Source: Dysgonomonas sp. ZJ279
Lineage (GTDB): Bacteria > Bacteroidota > Bacteroidia > Bacteroidales > Dysgonomonadaceae
Assembly: GCF_011039205.1 (NCBI RefSeq)
Contig: NZ_JAAKEL010000001.1
Coordinates: forward strand, 62,001 to 126,000
DNA length: 64,000 nucleotides
Direction: 5' to 3'
Position 1 is the stretch's first letter; each line of letters starts with the position of its first letter. Position numbers and translations under genes: made by a program. A model generated the notes under the pieces. The model saw only the letters and a program-made list of their open reading frames with translations. It searched no databases and was not told where the DNA came from. Of the stretch, positions 31,680 through 40,404 are shown piece after piece.

Positions 31680-32969
31680 ATGAAAAGACTAAATATGAAG
31701 AATTTCTGTTTCCTTTTTTTCTTCTTGTTTTTGAGCTTTTGTCCTGTATTTGGGCAAACATCAAAACAAGAAATGTTCGATACTCCCGAAAAAACAGGAG
31801 GTGTTTATTACGCCTATCCTGAAAATTATCGCATAGTTCAGACACCTGTTCCAAAGGGCTATGAACCTTTCTATATAAGCCATTTTGGCCGTCATGGCTC
31901 GCGTTATTTGATAAACGATGAGGATTATAAGTGGGTACTCGATCTTTTAGCCGATGCTAAAAAAAATCAGGCACTAACTCCATTGGGCGAAGATGCGTAC
32001 AATCGACTGGCAGAGGTATGGATAGAAGCCGAAGGGCATGGCGGTGACCTGTCTCCTCTGGGCGTGCGTCAACATCGCGATATTGCCGAACGTATGTATA
32101 AAGCATATCCGCAAGTGTTTAGCAATAATGTCGAGATTTCGGCTCGTTCGACTGTGGTTATTCGCTGTGTACTTAGTATGGATGCCTTTTGCGAACGTTT
32201 GAAAGAGATCAACCCAACGCTGAATATTACCCGTGAGGCTAGTAATAAATATATGAATTATCTCAATTACCATACAGAGGAGGCGATGGCATTCACTTCC
32301 AGAAAAGGACCATGGTATGAGGAATATCGTAAATTTGAAGAAAGCCATACACGTCCCGATCGATTAATATCCTCTTTGTTTTCAGATACTACATATATAA
32401 AAAAGAAGGTAAATCCTGCACCTTTGATGTGGGCTTTTTACTGGATTGCAAGCGATATGCAGAATATGGAGACGGACTTATCGTTTTATGATTTGTTTGA
32501 GAAAGAAGAACTGTTCGACCTATGGGAAGTTGTAAACTACCGTCTATATGTATGTGATGCAACCTCTGCTTTAAATGGCGGAATTATGATGGAAAATTCG
32601 AAGCCCGTACTTAAAAATATACTGGATAGTGCTAACGAAATCATATCGATAAAAGGCAAAGGTGCAACTCTGCGTTTTGCTCACGATGGCAACATAATTC
32701 CGTTAGCGGCAATATTACATTTGCAGGATTGTTATGCCAGTATATCCGAACCGTCGGATTTTTATAAAGTATGGAGCAATTTCAAAATGGCTCCTATGGC
32801 TGGAAACATCCAAATTGTATTTTTCCAAAAGAAAGGATCTGATGATGTCCTTGTAAAATTCTTATTGAATGAGAAAGAAATACTTATACCTCCTGTAAAC
32901 AGTGATGTATTACCTTATTACCATTGGAAAGATGTAGAAGCTTTCTACAAGTCGCTATTGGCTGAATAG
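31680..32969 (+). CDS. Histidine acid phosphatase (phytase-like)
   Basis: An exported branch-2 histidine phosphatase of about 429 residues. The signal is MKRLNMKNFCFLFFFLFLSF ending near VFGQT. The catalytic SHFGRHGSRYLIN (RHGxR nucleophile) lies near residue 64 and the proton-donor motif is RFAHDGNIIPLAAIL near 337. HD at that site matches classical acid phosphatases and phytases; MINPP enzymes usually have HAE, so I do not call it MINPP. The ATG at 31680 is preferred to a GTG at 31668. It lies downstream of susCD, but a hairpin intervenes, so co-transcription would need readthrough. Periplasmic phosphomonoesterase activity is expected; substrate unknown. Confidence 0.88.
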   Translation: MKRLNMKNFCFLFFFLFLSFCPVFGQTSKQEMFDTPEKTGGVYYAYPENYRIVQTPVPKGYEPFYISHFGRHGSRYLINDEDYKWVLDLLADAKKNQALTPLGEDAYNRLAEVWIEAEGHGGDLSPLGVRQHRDIAERMYKAYPQVFSNNVEISARSTVVIRCVLSMDAFCERLKEINPTLNITREASNKYMNYLNYHTEEAMAFTSRKGPWYEEYRKFEESHTRPDRLISSLFSDTTYIKKKVNPAPLMWAFYWIASDMQNMETDLSFYDLFEKEELFDLWEVVNYRLYVCDATSALNGGIMMENSKPVLKNILDSANEIISIKGKGATLRFAHDGNIIPLAAILHLQDCYASISEPSDFYKVWSNFKMAPMAGNIQIVFFQKKGSDDVLVKFLLNEKEILIPPVNSDVLPYYHWKDVEAFYKSLLAE

Positions 32970-33007
32970 TAGCTGCAATGTGAAGTATTGATATCAAAAT
33001 AAGACTT

Positions 33008-33046
33008 AAGGCATCGTATTCTCATCGGAGGGTACGATGCCTTTGT
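33008..33046 (+). terminator. Terminator after the acid phosphatase
   Basis: AAGGCATCGTA at 33008-33018 pairs perfectly with TACGATGCCTT at 33033-33043, followed by a T-rich stretch. Confidence 0.85.
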
Positions 33047-33061
33047 ATTTATTTCTATATG

Positions 33062-33077
33062 TGTAACAAGTGGTACA
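33062..33077 (+). promoter_or_regulatory. Predicted Crp/Fnr-type operator of hcp
   Basis: TGTAACAAGTGGTACA matches the perfect palindrome core TGTAACATATGTTACA upstream of nrfH at 13 of 16 positions. Its centre is about 41.5 bases upstream of the start site predicted from the TAACTTTG element, the usual class II activator position for Crp/Fnr proteins. The regulator encoded at 39614-40291 is the obvious candidate to bind. Confidence 0.7.
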
Positions 33078-33099
33078 GATTTGGGTTGAACGAAGGGGC

Positions 33100-33107
33100 T
33101 AACTTTG
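33100..33107 (+). promoter_or_regulatory. -7 promoter element of hcp
   Basis: TAACTTTG, a full TAnnTTTG match, 26 bases before the hcp start. A TTTG at 33080-33083 is too close (16 bases) for an ideal -33 box, consistent with activator dependence. Confidence 0.7.
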
Positions 33108-33132
33108 CCTTAAACCTAAAAATAGAATTGTT

Positions 33133-34773
33133 ATGAGTATGTTTTGTTATCAATGTCAGGAAACAGCAAAAGGGACAGGTTGTACCTTAATGGGCGTTTG
33201 TGGGAAGACTCCGGAAGTGTCGGATATTCAAGATTTATTATTATTTGTAGCGAGAGGTATTGCCGTTTATAACGATAAATTGAGAGAACAGGGAAAATCA
33301 TCTAAAGAAGCTGATAAATTCGTTGTAGATGCAATGTTTATGAGCATTACGAATGCAAATTTTGATTTTGAAGCTATCAAAAATAAAGTAAAAGAAGGCT
33401 TATTGCTAAAAAGTAGATTGGCAGGAGTATTGGGTAATGTTGATTCTAATTTGCCCGATGAGTGTACTTGGAGTGGCAGCGAATCCGAATTTATGGAAAA
33501 AGCCAAAGAAGTAGGGGTGTTACGTACTAAAGATGAGGATATACGTTCATTGAAGGAATTGACTCACTATGGCTTGAAAGGAATGGCTGCTTATGCAGAA
33601 CATGCTTATAATCTCGATAAAGTAGACAATGAGTTATACTCTTTTATGCAAAGGGCTTTGGTTCAGATCACCAGAGAAGATATAACCGTAGATGAGTTGG
33701 TTGCGCTGGCTCTCGAAACAGGCAAATATGGTGTTCAGGCTATGGCATTACTAGATGCTGCCAATACTGGAAGATTCGGTAATCCGGAGATAACGGAAGT
33801 GAATATCGGAGTAGGCAGCAAACCGGGAATACTTATCAGCGGACACGACTTAAGAGATATCGAAGAACTCTTACAACAAACTGAAGGAACAGGCGTAGAT
33901 GTCTATACACACAGTGAAATGCTTCCGGCACATTATTATCCGGAATTGAAAAAATATAAACACCTTGTAGGTAACTATGGTGGTGCATGGTGGCAACAAA
34001 AAGAAGATTTTGATGCATTCAACGGGCCGATATTGTTTACTACAAACTGTATCGTTCCTCCATCCAAGAATGCAAGCTATAAAGGACGTATTTTTACTAC
34101 AGGAGCAGCCGGACTTGATGGTGCAATACACATCGCGGAGCGTCAGGATGGTAAACCAAAAGATTTTTCTGAAATTATTGCTATGGCAAAAGAAAGCCAA
34201 ACCCCACGTGAGATTGAGACAGGAACGATTGTAGGAGGATTTGCTCACGCACAAGTACTTGCCTTAGCAGACAAAGTGGTAGATGCTGTGAAATCGGGTG
34301 CTATCCGTAAATTTTTCGTAATGGCGGGTTGCGATGGGCGCATGAAGAGTCGTGATTACTATGCCGATTTTGCAAAAGCATTGCCTGACGATACTATTAT
34401 TCTTACTGCCGGTTGTGCGAAGTATCGTTACAATAAACTGCCATTGGGAGATATAGGTGGTATTCCGCGTGTATTGGATGCCGGTCAGTGTAATGATAGT
34501 TATTCGCTTGCTGTAATTGCACTTAAGCTGAAAGAGGTATTCGGACTCGATGATATTAATGATCTGCCTATTGCTTTCAATATTGCATGGTATGAACAAA
34601 AGGCTGTGATTGTTTTATTGGCATTGTTACATTTGGGAGTGAAAAATATTCATTTAGGACCGACTCTACCCGGATTTTTATCACCTAATGTAGCTAAGGT
34701 TCTGGTTGATAACTTTGGAATTGGCGGAATATCTACAGTAGAAGAAGATATCGAAATGTTTTTAGCAAACTAA
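33133..34773 (+). CDS. hcp: Hydroxylamine reductase / hybrid cluster protein
   Basis: A 546-residue cytosolic hybrid-cluster protein. The N-terminal cysteines C5-x2-C8-x8-C17-x5-C23 ([21 protein letters not shown]) are the class I pattern of strict anaerobes that ligates the proximal cube. Hybrid-cluster ligand segments follow: [56 protein letters not shown] and [20 protein letters not shown]. Hcp reduces hydroxylamine in vitro and is credited with NO reductase/nitrosylation activity in vivo. It is a single-gene transcript with its own promoter, a Crp/Fnr-type site upstream and a strong terminator, 6 kb from the nrf operon that makes or handles NO-related nitrogen. Confidence 0.97.
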
Positions 34774-34791
34774 GAATATTATTTCATTTTT

Positions 34792-34833
34792 CAAATAGTC
34801 TCAATCCTGTAAGGGGTTGAGACTATTTGCTTT
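34792..34833 (+). terminator. Terminator after hcp
   Basis: A 13-base stem: CAAATAGTCTCAA at 34792-34804 pairs with TTGAGACTATTTG at 34817-34829, followed by CTTT. Confidence 0.85.
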
Positions 34834-34879
34834 AAACTAAATGTGATAGTATTTTGTTATACTTAAAAACCATTAGATA

Positions 34880-35239
34880 ATGAAAATACAACTGAAAAGA
34901 GTCTACGATGATTTTGATGAAAATGATGGTTACAGAGTTCTCGTCGACCGGCTCTGGCCACGAGGTATAAGCAAGGCTCGCTTACATTACGATCTTTGGG
35001 CAAAAGATATTACCCCATCATCGAAACTTCGCATCTGGGTTCATGAAGATATGGAAGGTAGATGGGACGATTTTGCCATGGCTTATCGAAAAGAATTAAG
35101 TCAATCTTCGGCAGTACACAAATTTACAGAACAGATAAAGCAATACGATAAGGTAACATTGCTATATGCTTCGAGAGAGACAAAGCATAATCACGCAATT
35201 ATACTAAAAGGGTATTTAGAAAAACTATTGTCTGAATAA
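34880..35239 (+). CDS. DUF488 (YeaO-like) protein
   Basis: A 119-residue soluble protein of the DUF488 family. Markers are VLVDRLWPRGISKARLHYDL, WAKDITPSSKLRIWVHED and the C-terminal LLYASRETKHNHAIILKGYL. The family is widespread and structurally related to uncharacterised nucleic-acid or nucleotide-associated folds; the molecular function is not established. Length is typical. The gene is monocistronic, after the hcp terminator and convergent with ccsA, with 2 bases between the stops. Confidence 0.9.
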   Translation: MKIQLKRVYDDFDENDGYRVLVDRLWPRGISKARLHYDLWAKDITPSSKLRIWVHEDMEGRWDDFAMAYRKELSQSSAVHKFTEQIKQYDKVTLLYASRETKHNHAIILKGYLEKLLSE

Positions 35240-35241
35240 TT

Positions 35242-36024
35242 TTAAGAATATACATGTATACTTCCCTGTGCAGCAGGTAGGTAATTGACACCAATCCACG
35301 TAATCATAAGCAGAACAAATGCAATCGGCAGCATCCATACGGTGAACTTCTGATGATTGTTTTGCAGGCGCATATGTATATAGATGAGGTAGGCGGCAGA
35401 AGTGATAAATGCCCACGTTTCTTTCGGATCCCACGACCAGTAATGCCCCCATGCTTCTTTTGCCCAAACTGCACCCATCAGCATACCCAGAATAAGAAAT
35501 CCGAAGCCGACATAAACAATGTTATCCATAAATTTATACAACTCTTCGTCGGGGCTACCTTTCTTTATTTTTGTCAGTTGGATAAACGCTGCTATCGTTG
35601 CTGCTCCCAACATTGCATATGATAAAATATATACAGTAACATGGGGCACAAACCAGTAGCTTTGCAGTGCAGGCATCAGGTTTGTAGAATGGATTTCCGG
35701 TTTAAAAATGTTGACACAAACGAATACACAGGCTATTACACCACTAAAGGACAAGAGCCATTTATATTTCCAGTGTTTGTATGTCAAAAAACCAATTGTA
35801 GACAAGAAAAACGAATACCACAAGCGAGTCTCTCCCATTGTACGAAGTGGCGGACGTTCTTGTCCGATCCATAGCCCGACAATGAAGGCAGCAAATATAG
35901 CTATGCCCGCAATCATCAAGATATCGATAATGATCTGTTTCTTTACTTTATATATTAATGCGGCGGCAGCTAACCAGCAAATCATAGCAGGTATAGCAAA
36001 CCATAGGTATTCACTCCAAGTCAT
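35242..36024 (-). CDS. ccsA: CcsA/ResC-type cytochrome c haem-transfer protein
   Basis: A 260-residue inner-membrane protein with about eight hydrophobic helices and the defining Trp-rich haem-handling motif WGHYWSWDPKETWAFITSAA near residue 190, plus conserved His residues in flanking loops (VPHVTVYILSY, IHMRLQNNHQ). With CcsB/ResB it exports haem and ligates it to CxxCH motifs (cytochrome c maturation System II). It overlaps ccsB by 14 bases and is last in the nrfHA-ccsBA set, so dedicated maturation of NrfH/NrfA is likely, including the unusual CxxCK site of NrfA. Confidence 0.93.
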   Translation of the reverse strand: MTWSEYLWFAIPAMICWLAAAALIYKVKKQIIIDILMIAGIAIFAAFIVGLWIGQERPPLRTMGETRLWYSFFLSTIGFLTYKHWKYKWLLSFSGVIACVFVCVNIFKPEIHSTNLMPALQSYWFVPHVTVYILSYAMLGAATIAAFIQLTKIKKGSPDEELYKFMDNIVYVGFGFLILGMLMGAVWAKEAWGHYWSWDPKETWAFITSAAYLIYIHMRLQNNHQKFTVWMLPIAFVLLMITWIGVNYLPAAQGSIHVYS

Positions 36025-37273
36025 TTTCTTTCTTTGTTTTTTTGTTGCCCGACCACAACAGGCATATCGAGCCTATTGCTAATAATATAATGCCTAAGTA
36101 AACAGGGTATATCCACGGATCGTATACTAATTCCATACTACTGTAATTCGACATTTTTCCTGCTTGATTATCATACCCATATTGATAAATAACCCAATTG
36201 TCAATTTTTAGCGGCTTGTTTACTTCGAGTATCGCTTTTTCTTCTTTTCCGTCTTCGGTGAATACATCGATATCCGATACAAATCGTTTCGGTTCTGGTT
36301 GAGTCATCACCACACAGAAAGTCGAATCGAGATTGAGGGTCATATATAATTGAGCTGTATTGCCACAACACACCCATCCTGTGGACATTTCACCTGTTGT
36401 TTTATTGGTCGCTTTTACCAGTGCAGCGGGAGATGCTCCCGGCATGTGAACTTCCTGATATGTGCTATCGCTATTGCGTACGGCATCATGTATATATTTC
36501 TCGAGAGTTATGTCCCATTGGTCTATATTGCCATGCGGTCTCTTTTCGTCAATCTGGACATACTCAGGTTTAGCTTCCGGCTGAGGTGTTCCCGACTCTC
36601 TGTTTATAACAGCTAGTTTCGGTGGATATTCTTCCATATAGAAATCGTTGAGCTGGATAGCTATCGGCAGTTCCAGCACATCCTCATTGTCGCTGAATAC
36701 ACGCCATTCTACTTCTCCTTCGTACACGTGCATTACGTAGCGTTTCATATCGGCAGAACCGAGTCCGGCAGCAAAGAGAAGAATCCACAATCCGATGTGG
36801 TTCATGTAAAAAGCATAATCTTTTTTCTTAAAAGCAACTAGTCGTCGTGCAATCAATGATCCTAAAGAAAGCAACGTTAGGAAATAGACTAGAACAAAAG
36901 ACCATGACGAGGTTACTTGCCGAAAACCGAGTTGTGTGAATATATCATTATCGTGCGGATTCGTTTTTATTAATTGAGGAGTAAGCCCCAGGATCAATGC
37001 CAGCAGAAGCATAGCTGTAATCAGTGTTACGGAAAAGGGAACTCCCGAAAACCATTGATAGAAAACATTTTTTCGTTTGAACGAAAAGGCAATTAAGAAT
37101 AAAATGATCGCCGCTCCCACTATTAAGTTGACAGGTGAGCTAAGCAGGAAAAAATTAAATTTCCCTACTGTTAATTGTAATATGAAACCAATGACAATTA
37201 TTCCTCCGACAAGGGCGATGCTCTCTTTGTATCGCCACGGGAATTGCCACATCTTTCGTTTGTTATCTTCCAT
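36011..37273 (-). CDS. ccsB: ResB/CcsB-like cytochrome c biogenesis protein
   Basis: A 420-residue inner-membrane protein with three or four N-terminal helices (ESIALVGGIIVIGFILQLTV, FSVTLITAMLLLALILGL), a helix containing FYMNHIGLWILLFAAGLGS, a large extracytoplasmic domain (about 185-385) and a final helix YPVYLGIILLAIGSICLLW. This is the ResB/CcsB layout; partner of CcsA in System II cytochrome c maturation. The extracytoplasmic CC pair in GWVCCGNT is noteworthy and might interact with apocytochrome thiols, which is speculation. It follows nrfA by about 70 bases across a hairpin terminator. Confidence 0.87.
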   Translation of the reverse strand: MEDNKRKMWQFPWRYKESIALVGGIIVIGFILQLTVGKFNFFLLSSPVNLIVGAAIILFLIAFSFKRKNVFYQWFSGVPFSVTLITAMLLLALILGLTPQLIKTNPHDNDIFTQLGFRQVTSSWSFVLVYFLTLLSLGSLIARRLVAFKKKDYAFYMNHIGLWILLFAAGLGSADMKRYVMHVYEGEVEWRVFSDNEDVLELPIAIQLNDFYMEEYPPKLAVINRESGTPQPEAKPEYVQIDEKRPHGNIDQWDITLEKYIHDAVRNSDSTYQEVHMPGASPAALVKATNKTTGEMSTGWVCCGNTAQLYMTLNLDSTFCVVMTQPEPKRFVSDIDVFTEDGKEEKAILEVNKPLKIDNWVIYQYGYDNQAGKMSNYSSMELVYDPWIYPVYLGIILLAIGSICLLWSGNKKTKKENDLE

Positions 37274-37284
37274 CTATTTATGTA

Positions 37285-37322
37285 ATAAAAAAGTGTCTGA
37301 AGAATTTAAGCATCAGACACTT
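37285..37322 (-). terminator. Attenuating terminator between nrfA and ccsB
   Basis: AAGTGTCTGA (37291-37300) and TCAGACACTT (37313-37322) form a 10-base stem; read on the minus strand it ends in a run of T. It would reduce ccsBA relative to nrfHA transcripts. Confidence 0.75.
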
Positions 37323-37344
37323 CTTCGTGTTATATTTCTATGAT

Positions 37345-38844
37345 TTATAGATTTGCTGTTAAACGTCCTTCTTTCTTCGCTTTTTCCAGCCATTGAGGAG
37401 CAACGGTTTTCAGCCATTTTTCTTTCTTTTCCTTCTTGTCTTTCATGTCAAGACCGATAAATTGTTGAGCTTTGTCTTTGCTTGATATGTCGGGCATTTT
37501 TACATCCATAATACCATGAGCGAACAATACACGTTGTAGTTCAAGTTGTGCTTGTAAGCTTTTGTCCAGACTATGTGCAAGAATACGTTGAGTTTCAACA
37601 GGAGCATGGAAAGAAGCTCCGTGCGAAGCAACGGCAAAATCCCAACGCCATTGTGCCTGACGGATCAGTTTGAGCGATGCATCCATTTCTTTTTGGTTAG
37701 CACCGTTATCCCATGCCGTTTTAGCCATGATGTGTGCCTTCGATAATTCTTGTTCTATACGATCACGTATTTCGAGAGCCTTGTCTTGGTATTCGTATAC
37801 ATAGTTTCTCAATTTATCTTCGCTATCATGATGACATGTTTGGCATGTGTTTGCTATATTTTTGAGTGGACTCATAATCTGATGATTCGAATATTTTATA
37901 CCACCTTCGGCCATATATGGCATATGGCAGTCGGCACATGAAAGTCCGCGTTGTGCATGAGGTCCTAATAAGAATAACTCATAATCGGGATGCTGTGCTT
38001 TTAGCATTGGCGCTTTACTCAGTGCATGCGTCCAGTCCGAGAATCCGATATTATCATAATATTCTTCCATTGCTTCTACGGTCATACCTCCATCCCAAGG
38101 AAAAGTAAGATATTTACCTTCGCCCTGAAACGAATATTCTACATGGCATTGCGCACAAACTAACGCTCTCATTTCTTGTGGAGATGCTTGTGTTATATCT
38201 TTTCCCTGACGTTCGAATGCTTCGACAAGAGCAGGGCGTGTGATTGTTAGATTCATTGTTACGGGATCGTGGCAATCGGCACAACCTATCGGGTTCACTA
38301 TTTCGCTACCCCATTCGCTCCACTTTGCTTTGTAGAAATTCTCAATACCTACCTCGTGCATCATGCGTGGTACATCGGGACTTTTACATGTCCAGCAAGT
38401 TCCCGGTTGCATTTCGCCTTCTCCATTTTCGGGAGATCCTGTACGCAATGTATTGGTCATATCTTCAATAGCATGCATGTGCCCTCTGGGTGCTGTATAT
38501 TCTTGCGAGAAAGCATATCCCGCCCATAGTACTACCATTTGCGGACGGCTTTCCAATACGTCTTGTGGAGCATTACCTAAATGCTTGCTTCGGAAATCCA
38601 TTTCCTGTGTCTTTTTCCATGTATTGTATTCCCGTGGATAATTGACTCCCCATTGTTCGCTGTGAGGATTGATACCCGATATATCAATCTTCTTGTTGTT
38701 GAACAGAGTTGCTATCTCTGCCCTGCGTTCGGTTATAGATGCAGCTAACAAGCCCAATAAAAAAACACCTGCCATAACGACGGCAAATATACCCCAACCG
38801 ATCATTGGTTTTCTTTTTATTGTTTCAGTCAATTTTTTTAGCAT
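37345..38844 (-). CDS. nrfA: NrfA, ammonia-forming pentahaem nitrite reductase
   Basis: A 499-residue periplasmic cytochrome c552 that reduces nitrite to ammonium with six electrons; it can also reduce NO. Five haem sites are seen: the active-site haem CWTCK near residue 150, with Lys as the distal ligand, then CADCH near 188, CAQCH near 230, CADCH near 303 and CQTCH near 333. Catalytic-region segments include PRGHMHAIEDMTNTLRTGSP and CADCHMPYMAEGG. An N-terminal hydrophobic helix (GWGIFAVVMAGVFLLGLLAA) is a signal or anchor. It follows nrfH by 13 bases; NrfH supplies electrons from menaquinol. Confidence 0.98.
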   Translation of the reverse strand: MLKKLTETIKRKPMIGWGIFAVVMAGVFLLGLLAASITERRAEIATLFNNKKIDISGINPHSEQWGVNYPREYNTWKKTQEMDFRSKHLGNAPQDVLESRPQMVVLWAGYAFSQEYTAPRGHMHAIEDMTNTLRTGSPENGEGEMQPGTCWTCKSPDVPRMMHEVGIENFYKAKWSEWGSEIVNPIGCADCHDPVTMNLTITRPALVEAFERQGKDITQASPQEMRALVCAQCHVEYSFQGEGKYLTFPWDGGMTVEAMEEYYDNIGFSDWTHALSKAPMLKAQHPDYELFLLGPHAQRGLSCADCHMPYMAEGGIKYSNHQIMSPLKNIANTCQTCHHDSEDKLRNYVYEYQDKALEIRDRIEQELSKAHIMAKTAWDNGANQKEMDASLKLIRQAQWRWDFAVASHGASFHAPVETQRILAHSLDKSLQAQLELQRVLFAHGIMDVKMPDISSKDKAQQFIGLDMKDKKEKKEKWLKTVAPQWLEKAKKEGRLTANL

Positions 38845-38857
38845 ACCGGTATGTATT

Positions 38858-39445
38858 TTAATTGTTATTTTTTTTCATTTTATTTTTTAGCCACTCTGGT
38901 ACAGGCGAAGCAGGAAGTGGGACAATGGCATTTGGCGATGACGACAGGCTACTCACTTTTGTATGTGGTACTTGTGTGTGACAATCCCAACATGCTTTTC
39001 CCTTGCCTTCCTGAACTTGTACGTAATCTATCATCCCTGTTTTTACAAATTCTGTATTGAGTTGAGTATGACAGCGAATACAGTTATTCATAATTACTTC
39101 GTAGCTTTCGTCACGTGGTCTTATTACCTGAGGTTCGCCTTTCATCGTGAAAACAGCGGCGTGATATAAACCGTCTTTCGCTTTGAAGGCATATTTCGAT
39201 ATCACATTGTCATGCGGTACGTGACAATCGTTGCAGGTTGCCCATTGTGCATGCGAACTGTGATTCCACGATTGATAATAAGGAGTCATTATATGGCAGT
39301 TGATACAGGCTGCCGGATCGTCGGACAGATATGAGTAGGCTCTCGACATATATACGCTATATACTCCAAGTCCGGCAATTACACCACCTGCAATAAGAAA
39401 AGGTAGTATAAACTGATTAGGGATATGCTTGAAAATATTTATCAT
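38858..39445 (-). CDS. nrfH: NrfH, tetrahaem menaquinol dehydrogenase
   Basis: A 195-residue membrane-anchored cytochrome of the NapC/NirT/NrfH family. One N-terminal helix (FILPFLIAGGVIAGLGVYSV) is followed by four CxxCH sites: CINCH, CNDCH, CIRCH and CWDCH, the last followed by TQVPHTKVSS. It oxidises menaquinol and passes electrons to NrfA. It is the first gene of the nrfHA-ccsBA transcript, 81 bases downstream of a consensus promoter and 135 bases from a perfect palindromic operator. A Ser/Pro-rich, Lys-ended tail follows the last haem. Confidence 0.97.
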   Translation of the reverse strand: MINIFKHIPNQFILPFLIAGGVIAGLGVYSVYMSRAYSYLSDDPAACINCHIMTPYYQSWNHSSHAQWATCNDCHVPHDNVISKYAFKAKDGLYHAAVFTMKGEPQVIRPRDESYEVIMNNCIRCHTQLNTEFVKTGMIDYVQVQEGKGKACWDCHTQVPHTKVSSLSSSPNAIVPLPASPVPEWLKNKMKKNNN

Positions 39446-39526
39446 CGATGTATTCCTATTGATATTTAGTTGGTTAACTCAGTAGATGCGCTTTACTCTC
39501 AAAGGTTAACTGAAAAGCGTATTCTA

Positions 39527-39560
39527 CAAATATAGAATACTTTTTATATCTAAACACAAA
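39527..39560 (-). promoter_or_regulatory. Promoter of the nrfHA operon
   Basis: The minus strand has TATATTTG (complement of 39527-39534) and TTTG (complement of 39557-39560), 22 bases apart, matching the Bacteroidota -7/-33 consensus upstream of nrfH. Confidence 0.75.
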
Positions 39561-39580
39561 TTAACTAAAATTAAACGTGT

Positions 39581-39606
39581 AAAAGTGTAACATATGTTAC
39601 ACTTTT
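39581..39606. promoter_or_regulatory. Perfect 26-base palindrome, Crp/Fnr-type operator
   Basis: An uninterrupted palindrome with core TGTAACATATGTTACA flanked by AAAAG and CTTTT, between the Crp/Fnr stop and the nrfH promoter. The TGT-N10-ACA form fits Crp/Fnr operators; its centre is about 70 bases upstream of the predicted nrfH start site, a class I activator position. A similar site precedes hcp. It could double as a weak terminator for the regulator gene. Confidence 0.75.
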
Positions 39607-39613
39607 GAGTAAT

Positions 39614-40291
39614 TCAAGAAAAATGAATCAATTGAATGAGGGCATTCTTATTTTTAATCTGTATACTTTTCTTCTCAACTACAATCAATCCGTCTTCTTG
39701 CATATTATGAAGCTCACGGGCAAGCGATGGACGCGATACCCCAAAATATTCAGCAAGGGAACTTTGGCTTTTGTCCATAATAATGGTATCGCTATTATTG
39801 TTTTTATGTAAAGATAAAATGTGCATCGCCAACTTTTGTCGGATTGTGCGGAACGACATGAGATGAAGCTTCTCCGTTATAAGGGTAGCATAGTTGGCAG
39901 AAATGTCTAAATAGTTTTTCAGGAATTGTTCATTAAGGCTTAATGCCTTCAATATGGATTGCTTTGATATAACAAATGCAGTCACATCTTCGCGGGCAGT
40001 GACCTGAACGGGAAATCTGTTTTTGTCACCAAAAATGAAAAGAATAGCAAGGGGATTAGGGGCATGAATGTCTTCGACTTTAACGACCTTACCGGATGGA
40101 TCTGTCATTTCAGCTTTCACACTACCCTTTGATAGAATAATTAATCGGTTGCATGGCTCATCCTGCAATGCAAGAATATTACCTTTGCTGAAAATCATTT
40201 CTTTAGCATTGGCTTTGAGTAATACCTCTTCGATTTCTGTTTCCTGCATCGAATTGAAAAGCCTGCATTTAGATATATTTTTCGTGTCCAT
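39614..40291 (-). CDS. Crp/Fnr-family regulator, probable nitrite/NO-stress (HcpR-like)
   Basis: A 225-residue cAMP-receptor-like regulator: cyclic-nucleotide-binding-type beta-barrel at about 15-125 (MIFSKGNILALQDEPCNRLI), dimerisation helix to about 150, and winged HTH at about 160-215 with SSLAEYFGVSRPSLARELHN as the HTH. There is no FNR-type Cys cluster at the N-terminus (only single Cys residues), so it is not an iron-sulfur FNR; HcpR proteins of this type are reported to sense NO through haem. Its stop lies 8 bases from the palindrome upstream of nrfH, and a related site precedes hcp. Regulation of both is inferred from these sites. Confidence 0.88.
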   Translation of the reverse strand: MDTKNISKCRLFNSMQETEIEEVLLKANAKEMIFSKGNILALQDEPCNRLIILSKGSVKAEMTDPSGKVVKVEDIHAPNPLAILFIFGDKNRFPVQVTAREDVTAFVISKQSILKALSLNEQFLKNYLDISANYATLITEKLHLMSFRTIRQKLAMHILSLHKNNNSDTIIMDKSQSSLAEYFGVSRPSLARELHNMQEDGLIVVEKKSIQIKNKNALIQLIHFS

Positions 40292-40351
40292 TTTATTATT
40301 CTTTTTTATAAAAGTAAAGATATTTATTGTTCCTGCAATCTATTTCAATGG

Positions 40352-40382
40352 AAAAAGGTTGTGAGACTATCACAACCTTTTC
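40352..40382. terminator. Bidirectional-type hairpin after galK
   Basis: AAAAGGTTGTGA (40353-40364) pairs perfectly with TCACAACCTTTT (40370-40381) around a 5-base loop, with T runs on the minus strand. It ends the galM-galK transcript before the regulator gene. Confidence 0.85.
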
Positions 40383-40404
40383 GATATAAGTAAGTATTTA
40401 ATTA

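Follow-up and report, generated by a model that had tools for sequence, protein, structure and literature searches.

In a 64,000-nucleotide stretch of the Dysgonomonas sp. ZJ279 genome (the window, to which all simple coordinates refer), an HcpR-like regulator of the Crp/Fnr family very probably controls hcp and quite probably also controls nrfHA, so that, as originally proposed, one activator probably acts at both hcp and the nrfHA-ccsBA operon. The activator (39614-40291) would bind operators of the TGTAAC-N4-GTTACA type centred near -41 at both promoters. From there it would recruit RNA polymerase in class II fashion to the Bacteroidota -7 element, which is TAnnTTTG at hcp and a weaker nnnnTTTG at nrf. 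Nitrite ammonification and nitric oxide (NO)/hydroxylamine repair would then come under one switch. We infer binding, class II activation and co-induction of hcp and nrfHA from the following features and their counterparts in relatives.

39614 to 40291, minus strand: HcpR-like Crp/Fnr regulator, 225 amino acids, recognition helix SRPSLAREL
33133 to 34773, plus strand: hcp, hybrid cluster protein/hydroxylamine reductase, 546 amino acids (Prismane, 4.6e-179; NF003658, 1.3e-253)
38858 to 39445, minus strand: nrfH, NapC/NirT-type quinol dehydrogenase subunit (TIGR03153, 8.3e-51)
37345 to 38844, minus strand: nrfA (NF008339, 7.8e-194)
33062 to 33077, plus strand: hcp operator TGTAACAAGTGGTACA in class II position, from its sequence, spacing and conservation in relatives
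33100 to 33107, plus strand: hcp promoter -7 element TAACTTTG, 22 nucleotides downstream of the operator
39581 to 39606, no strand assigned: perfect 26-base palindrome AAAAGTGTAACATATGTTACACTTTT, with the nrf core operator TGTAACATATGTTACA at 39586-39601, from sequence and promoter spacing
39557 to 39564, minus strand: probable nrf -7 element TTAATTTG, exactly 21 nucleotides from the operator
39527 to 39534, minus strand: alternative -7 element TATATTTG, 51 nucleotides from the operator, used in the original prediction

The sites, their conserved spacing, the regulator repertoire and the covariation of helix with operator are read directly from the DNA. The ZJ279 genome (4.1 Mb, 99.14% complete) was set beside 61 genomes of its family, Dysgonomonadaceae, surveyed for the regulator, nrfH and hcp. 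The regulator of the ZJ279 clade was looked for in the 25 genomes of the genus and in 101 genomes from the family as a whole, with duplicate genomes removed (UBA10850 equals G070 and Bacteroidales 45-6 equals G097). G064, G065 and G070 are incomplete genomes, at 55, 88 and 62%. Residues of the recognition helix carry CRP numbers assigned by helix alignment, following PMC1274295, and genomes are referred to as P181 or Q181 by the residue of the HcpR-like regulator at position 181. At hcp, TGTAACAAGTGGTACA and the nrf core disagree at three of their 16 bases, and the distance of TGTAACAAGTGGTACA from TAACTTTG places it in the -41.5 class; both were as first described. The same 22-nucleotide gap is found in four of four P181-type Dysgonomonas relatives (G025, G037, G041, G055), and in close P181-type relatives the operator reads TGTAAC-N4-G[AG]TACA, 21-22 nucleotides before TAnnTTTG. 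The ZJ279 operator combines class II spacing with 11 of the 12 bases of the GTAACnnnnGTTAC consensus. A site with at least 11 of 12 consensus bases lies within 300 bp in 30 of 41 usable hcp upstream regions, four truncated rows with no more than 100 upstream bases having been dropped, and in about 0.15% of simple shuffles. The Q181 genomes at first seemed to lack an hcp site, a reading mostly given up: several have frdX upstream of hcp with the box before frdX, an arrangement also found in the P181 genome G019. As a separate observation, the right half of the hcp operator is imperfect (GATACA or GGTACA) in 10 of 10 genomes of the SRPSL[AS]RE[LM] group, including G028, in which the regulator was not found; the ZJ279 nrf operator, in contrast, is perfectly symmetric.

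The 26-base palindrome between the regulator stop codon (39614) and nrfH was confirmed as perfect, and flanks like AAGTGTAA..TTACACTTTT surround the nrf operators of several relatives. Its earlier placement at -70.5 is probably wrong, since TTAATTTG, at the conserved 21-nucleotide gap, puts the operator near -41, and a class II site like that at hcp is the most likely arrangement. In the nrf promoter regions of the family, from which the second G043 copy of nrfH was dropped as it has no start codon, a palindromic operator stands exactly 21 nucleotides before nnnnTTTG in 41 of 49 (the misses are G004, G014, G020, G024, G028, G009, G027 and G040). Dinucleotide shuffles of the same regions gave a mean of 0.045 genomes with such an operator and a maximum of 1. 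TTAATTTG is identical in G064. As the spacing is fixed while few of the elements are canonical, the nrf -7 element itself is best described as predicted. In 11 genomes an extra open reading frame (ORF) lies ahead of nrfH and the box precedes that ORF at the same 21-nucleotide spacing; here the region from -1450 to -1050 was used, chosen after the box position had been seen. The one such ORF tested, in G055, encodes a Porin_O_P porin. TTTGCA-N4-TGCAAA palindromes upstream of nrfH in some Dysgonomonas were rejected as candidates: they fall inside the coding end of the preceding ORF, upstream of which the box is found. A second nrfH-like frame in G043 (L121, G043:C1:3480279-3482313), about 1.5 kb from the first and 86% identical to ZJ279 nrfH, suggests a partial tandem nrf duplication.

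The hcp and nrf sites stand out only once promoter spacing is added. Bare sites occur at chance level, with 3 matches of up to two mismatches in the window against 2.27 expected, and a bare-motif scan of the whole genome was uninformative (20 matches, and 21 for a control pattern). By contrast, the 4.1-Mb genome holds just two copies of the composite TGTAAC-N4-GNTACA followed after 24-26 nucleotides by TTTG, one at hcp and one at nrfH; the control gave none and base composition predicts about 0.05. Across the 25 genomes of the genus the same composite gave 12 matches against 1 for the control; nine lie at hcp or the nrf operon and three (G041:C98, G055:C59, G025:C30) have no evident target. 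A stricter composite with the full -7 element gave, with TGTAAC, 117 matches in the fetched loci, duplicates included, against a mean of 1.4 and a highest count of 13 for 19 shuffled half-sites, which are the relevant control because the loci were picked around hcp, nrfH and regulators. Another pattern with strict TAnnTTTG has no match in the ZJ279 genome because it leaves out the right half of the hcp operator (GGTACA) and the nrf -7 element. The ZJ279 regulator gene itself has no autoregulatory site with up to two mismatches. Unlike ZJ279, G005, G047, G011 and G031 (L038, L042, L088, L043) carry a box of class II type before their own regulator gene, which may reflect autoregulation.

Two residues of the recognition helix, 181 and 185, covary with two operator base pairs, 4 and 6, in the relatives compared. 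The ZJ279 helix has R180, P181 and R185, and the regulator fits both of its sites. Position 4 of the hcp or frdX operator is A in 20 of 20 same-clade genomes with P181 (20 and not 21 rows, because Bacteroidales 45-6 is G097) and C in eight of nine with Q181, the exception being G066 (Fisher 2e-6). The underlying table was assembled by hand, with same-clade loci that have no box in the DNA examined (L201, L204, L217, L218) excluded, and its Q181 boxes come from a relaxed scan. At position 6 of the nrf operator, T is found wherever an nrf paralogue bearing N, K or S at 185 is listed (33 genomes) and C in the eight genomes without one, so that 41 of 41 fit; the regulators in this comparison are those listed at E values up to 1e-15 together with separately read nrf paralogues. 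The position-6 rule had been set down before the nrf paralogues of G064, G065 and G070 were read, their operators being already known, and all three then fitted.

The local regulator is HcpR-like, as the original prediction held: it has Crp/Fnr domains, and its S-R-P-S-L-A-R helix fits the box at both promoters. PF00027 and PF13545, a cNMP-binding-like sensor and a Crp helix-turn-helix (HTH) domain, both score above their cut-offs. The FNR-type four-cysteine cluster is absent, the protein having just Cys9 and Cys47. It is the only HcpR-like gene found in the ZJ279 genome, where three other matches have E values of 0.0295-0.04. It lies 4.8 kb from hcp, and hcp or frdX is present in 22 of 30 same-clade loci examined. 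In a tree of 95 family regulators the ZJ279 clade is supported at 99/99 and stands apart from an hcp-adjacent QRPSLAR clade and from nrf-adjacent clades; long branches make the deep order of the tree uncertain. Among the orthologues found, the nearest share 63-65% identity, and a predicted structure of the ZJ279 protein has a mean predicted local distance difference test score (pLDDT) of 79.4 and a predicted template modelling score (pTM) of 0.58. The top sequence match in the PDB is 9day, which reads the same as 5v30 and 6np6 over the matched stretch. These entries we take to be Porphyromonas gingivalis HcpR. The RAEMVGPSG stretch of the match is consistent with the Met68 primer given in PMC12750200, and in the accessible text of that paper Met68 is the putative heme ligand. 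Met62 of the ZJ279 regulator (KAEMTDPSGK) aligns with it (RAEMVGPSGK), and this column is Met in 14 of 14 rows of the ZJ279 clade and Ile in 10 of 10 Dysgonomonas nrf paralogues. We infer that the signal may be NO or nitrite, sensed via heme. Met62 was rejected as a marker of hcp control, as the distribution of Met, Ile and Val tracks neither hcp control nor HcpR.

How nrfHA may have come under this regulator is suggested by the relatives. In many of them nrf is likely to be regulated by a separate Crp/Fnr paralogue that has a box of its own, and in three Q181 genomes (G032, G039, G064) the nrf box follows this paralogue and not HcpR. No such dedicated paralogue was found in the ZJ279 genome, and nrfHA therefore appears to have come under HcpR. 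That the paralogue was lost in this Dysgonomonas lineage and that an HcpR-type protein then took over the nrfHA promoter, with the operator unmoved, is a history to which we give about even chances; on that view the operator would have had no need to move, position 6, as read by residue 185, already being a match. Wiring of nrf and hcp to one regulator has a parallel in G011, G021 and G045, where just one regulator, of a third type (ERPSLSRAI), is listed. There a CGTAAC-N4-GTTACG box precedes nrfH in three of three genomes, hcp in G021 and G045, and frdX, the gene ahead of hcp, in G011. The one-regulator arrangement thus occurs in two versions, which differ in both regulator and box. Regulators of the ZJ279 clade lie between frdX or frdX-hcp and nrfHA in Parabacteroides sp. 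PFB2-10 and PF5-6 and in Bacteroides sp. 224. The last of these even has the regulator-operator-nrfH order of ZJ279, although its box is of the T6 type and a K185 paralogue lies close by. The proposal of one regulator over nitrite ammonification and NO detoxification holds in so far as ZJ279 has the sites, the layout and a single HcpR-like regulator; it does not extend to a general link of HcpR to nrfHA in Bacteroidales, because many relatives have their own nrf box and paralogue and five of the six genomes of genus g5 that were read have no class II site at nrfH.

Several findings weigh against control of nrfHA by HcpR or against parts of the argument for it. The combination of a P181/R185 HcpR, a C6 nrf operator and no nrf paralogue occurs in the ZJ279 genome alone, and no sister species turned up. 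The five g5 genomes without a class II site at nrfH (G004, G014, G020, G024, G028) include four in which the ZJ279-clade regulator is the sole one listed, and in G028 none was found. In Bacteroides thetaiotaomicron, according to the accessible text of PMC13370916, deletion of hcpR changed nrfA modestly. The P/Q covariation amounts to about one or two independent events, as the rows are related, and G066 breaks its rule; that at position 6 rests on one N-to-R change within the Dysgonomonas paralogue. As to the sensor, all 26 nrf-type paralogues compared from genera g6-g9 also have Met in the heme-ligand column. The six ERPSLSRAI regulators compared have Ile or Val there, and for several of the six there are boxes at hcp or frdX. 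At the nrf promoters, 35 of the 41 gap-21 elements are non-canonical and six are canonical TAnnTTTG. Four relatives (G055, G039, G064, G032) have a C6 nrf operator alongside an R185 nrf paralogue, so the ZJ279 nrf operator could itself be a relic of such a lost paralogue, now unused or weakly used, with HcpR acting on hcp alone. The failure to find an R185-type nrf paralogue in the ZJ279 genome and the non-canonical TTAATTTG would both suit a relic. A perfect 26-base palindrome at the conserved spacing, however, would be expected to have decayed, the specificity residues of the resident regulator match the operator, and non-canonical -7 elements are usual at nrf in the family, which together make a relic unlikely.

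The nrf site could instead act as a class I operator near -70 on TATATTTG, as first measured, for TATATTTG is closer to the -7 consensus than TTAATTTG, and the gap-21 TTTG, 22 nucleotides upstream of TATATTTG, could serve as its -33 element. This too we regard as unlikely, though worth keeping in mind, given the conserved 21-nucleotide gap and the uniqueness of the second element: a TAnnTTTG at a gap of 41-61 is present in ZJ279 and in none of the other 40 promoters with a gap-21 operator. The palindrome might also be an intrinsic terminator of the regulator gene and no operator at all, as the stop codon is just seven bases away, the RNA would form an 11-bp hairpin (-11.9 kcal/mol, z -4.5) and the equivalent operator in Bacteroides sp. 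224 also abuts the regulator stop. Good folding is nevertheless expected of any perfect palindrome, and this stem is A+T-rich with no U-run after it. Moreover, such a box precedes the ORF ahead of nrfH in the 11 genomes described above and its sequence tracks the regulators present, so that a terminator is highly improbable. Equally improbable is the binding of both sites by another Crp-family protein of ZJ279. A second Crp-like gene does exist (G000:C12:376729-377352), but its product is 21% identical (E 0.04) and its HTH, LASLSNMTTSNAIRTL, is without the R-P-x-x-x-R signature. A single HcpR-like activator at both promoters is our preferred model.

The rest of the locus comprises two genes that are probably in an operon with nrfHA, giving the minus-strand order regulator, nrfH, nrfA, ResB-like gene and CcsA-type gene.

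36011 to 37273, minus strand: ResB-like cytochrome c maturation protein, ccsB type (PF05140)
35242 to 36024, minus strand: CcsA/CcmC-type cytochrome c assembly protein (domain and family profile matches)

A gene of the DUF488 family (34880-35239, plus strand) lies between hcp and the nrf/ccs operon, and an Rfam scan of 32900-40400 gave no match at gathering cut-offs. Elsewhere in the family, genera g7-g9 have a small gene with a perfect TGTAAC-N4-GTTACA 21 nucleotides before TAnnTTTG (L100:3222, L094:3191, L095, L098, L124:3708, L135, L138). The one copy tested, in L100, encodes a cupin domain, and the gene lies just beyond hcp in loci where hcp is present; it is likely a further HcpR target. 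In L145:2202 and L149:2433 (both minus strand) a gene with DUF6448, as judged from the L145 copy tested, has TGTCAC-N4-GTGACA 21 nucleotides before TAnnTTTG and is a possible target of the QRQSLAR-type third paralogue in these loci.

Our results tie nitrite ammonification and nitrosative-stress repair to one predicted switch in a Bacteroidales lineage and extend the predicted HcpR regulon from hcp to nrfHA in this lineage. They also provide a testable code, pairing residue 181 with base pair 4 and residue 185 with base pair 6, by which HcpR promoters can be told apart from nrf-paralogue promoters within a bacterial family and which, if true, predicts which regulator owns these promoters across that family. 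The handover, if it took place, would be a clear small case of a regulon gaining a target via paralogue loss. It would also be a change of signal (Met as against Ile in the heme-ligand column) that places nitrite ammonification under NO/heme sensing. A search of the accessible literature found no report of HcpR control of nrfHA in Dysgonomonas or of an nrf regulator handover in Bacteroidales.

Among known systems, compared here through the accessible text of each paper, the HcpR2 regulon described by Rodionov et al. in 2005 (PMC1274295) has in common with ZJ279 a Crp/Fnr regulator, the motif GTAACnnnnGTTAC, Pro at the 181-equivalent and control of hcp; it differs in that hcp is the only target predicted in most Bacteroides. 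The same work assigns nrfHA to the HcpR of Geobacter and Desulfuromonas, with a TTGAC-type box. In Desulfovibrio desulfuricans, according to the accessible text of PMC5701242, nrfHA yielded no HcpR site, and the accessible text of a 2025 review of nrf regulation mentions neither HcpR nor Bacteroides (PMC12285233). Position 181 of P. gingivalis HcpR is Gln, unlike in ZJ279, and the motif differs as well (PMC1274295); 'nrf' is absent from the accessible text of the paper on this protein (PMC12750200). The nrf-adjacent Crp/Fnr paralogues of the family, which are BT1413-like by synteny only, share with ZJ279 a class II box 21 nucleotides before nnnnTTTG at nrf. Their box, however, is [TC]GT[AC]AT-N4-ATTACA in 33 of 41 genomes, with N, K or S at 185, whereas ZJ279 has R185 and a TGTAAC box, and its regulator falls outside the nrf-paralogue clades of the tree. 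In B. thetaiotaomicron, unlike in ZJ279, nrfA lies at a distance of about 0.89 Mb, and a Crp-like gene, BT1413, is the predicted regulator of the nrf operon (PMC10434189). HcpR of this species is required for hcp, whose promoter carries an antisense RNA locus (the HcpR/SnoA/Hcp system; PMC13370916, a 2026 preprint). Pro187, Ser188 and Arg191 of that HcpR are modelled as contacts to its site (PMC13370916), and the same P-S-x-x-R arrangement is present in the ZJ279 protein.

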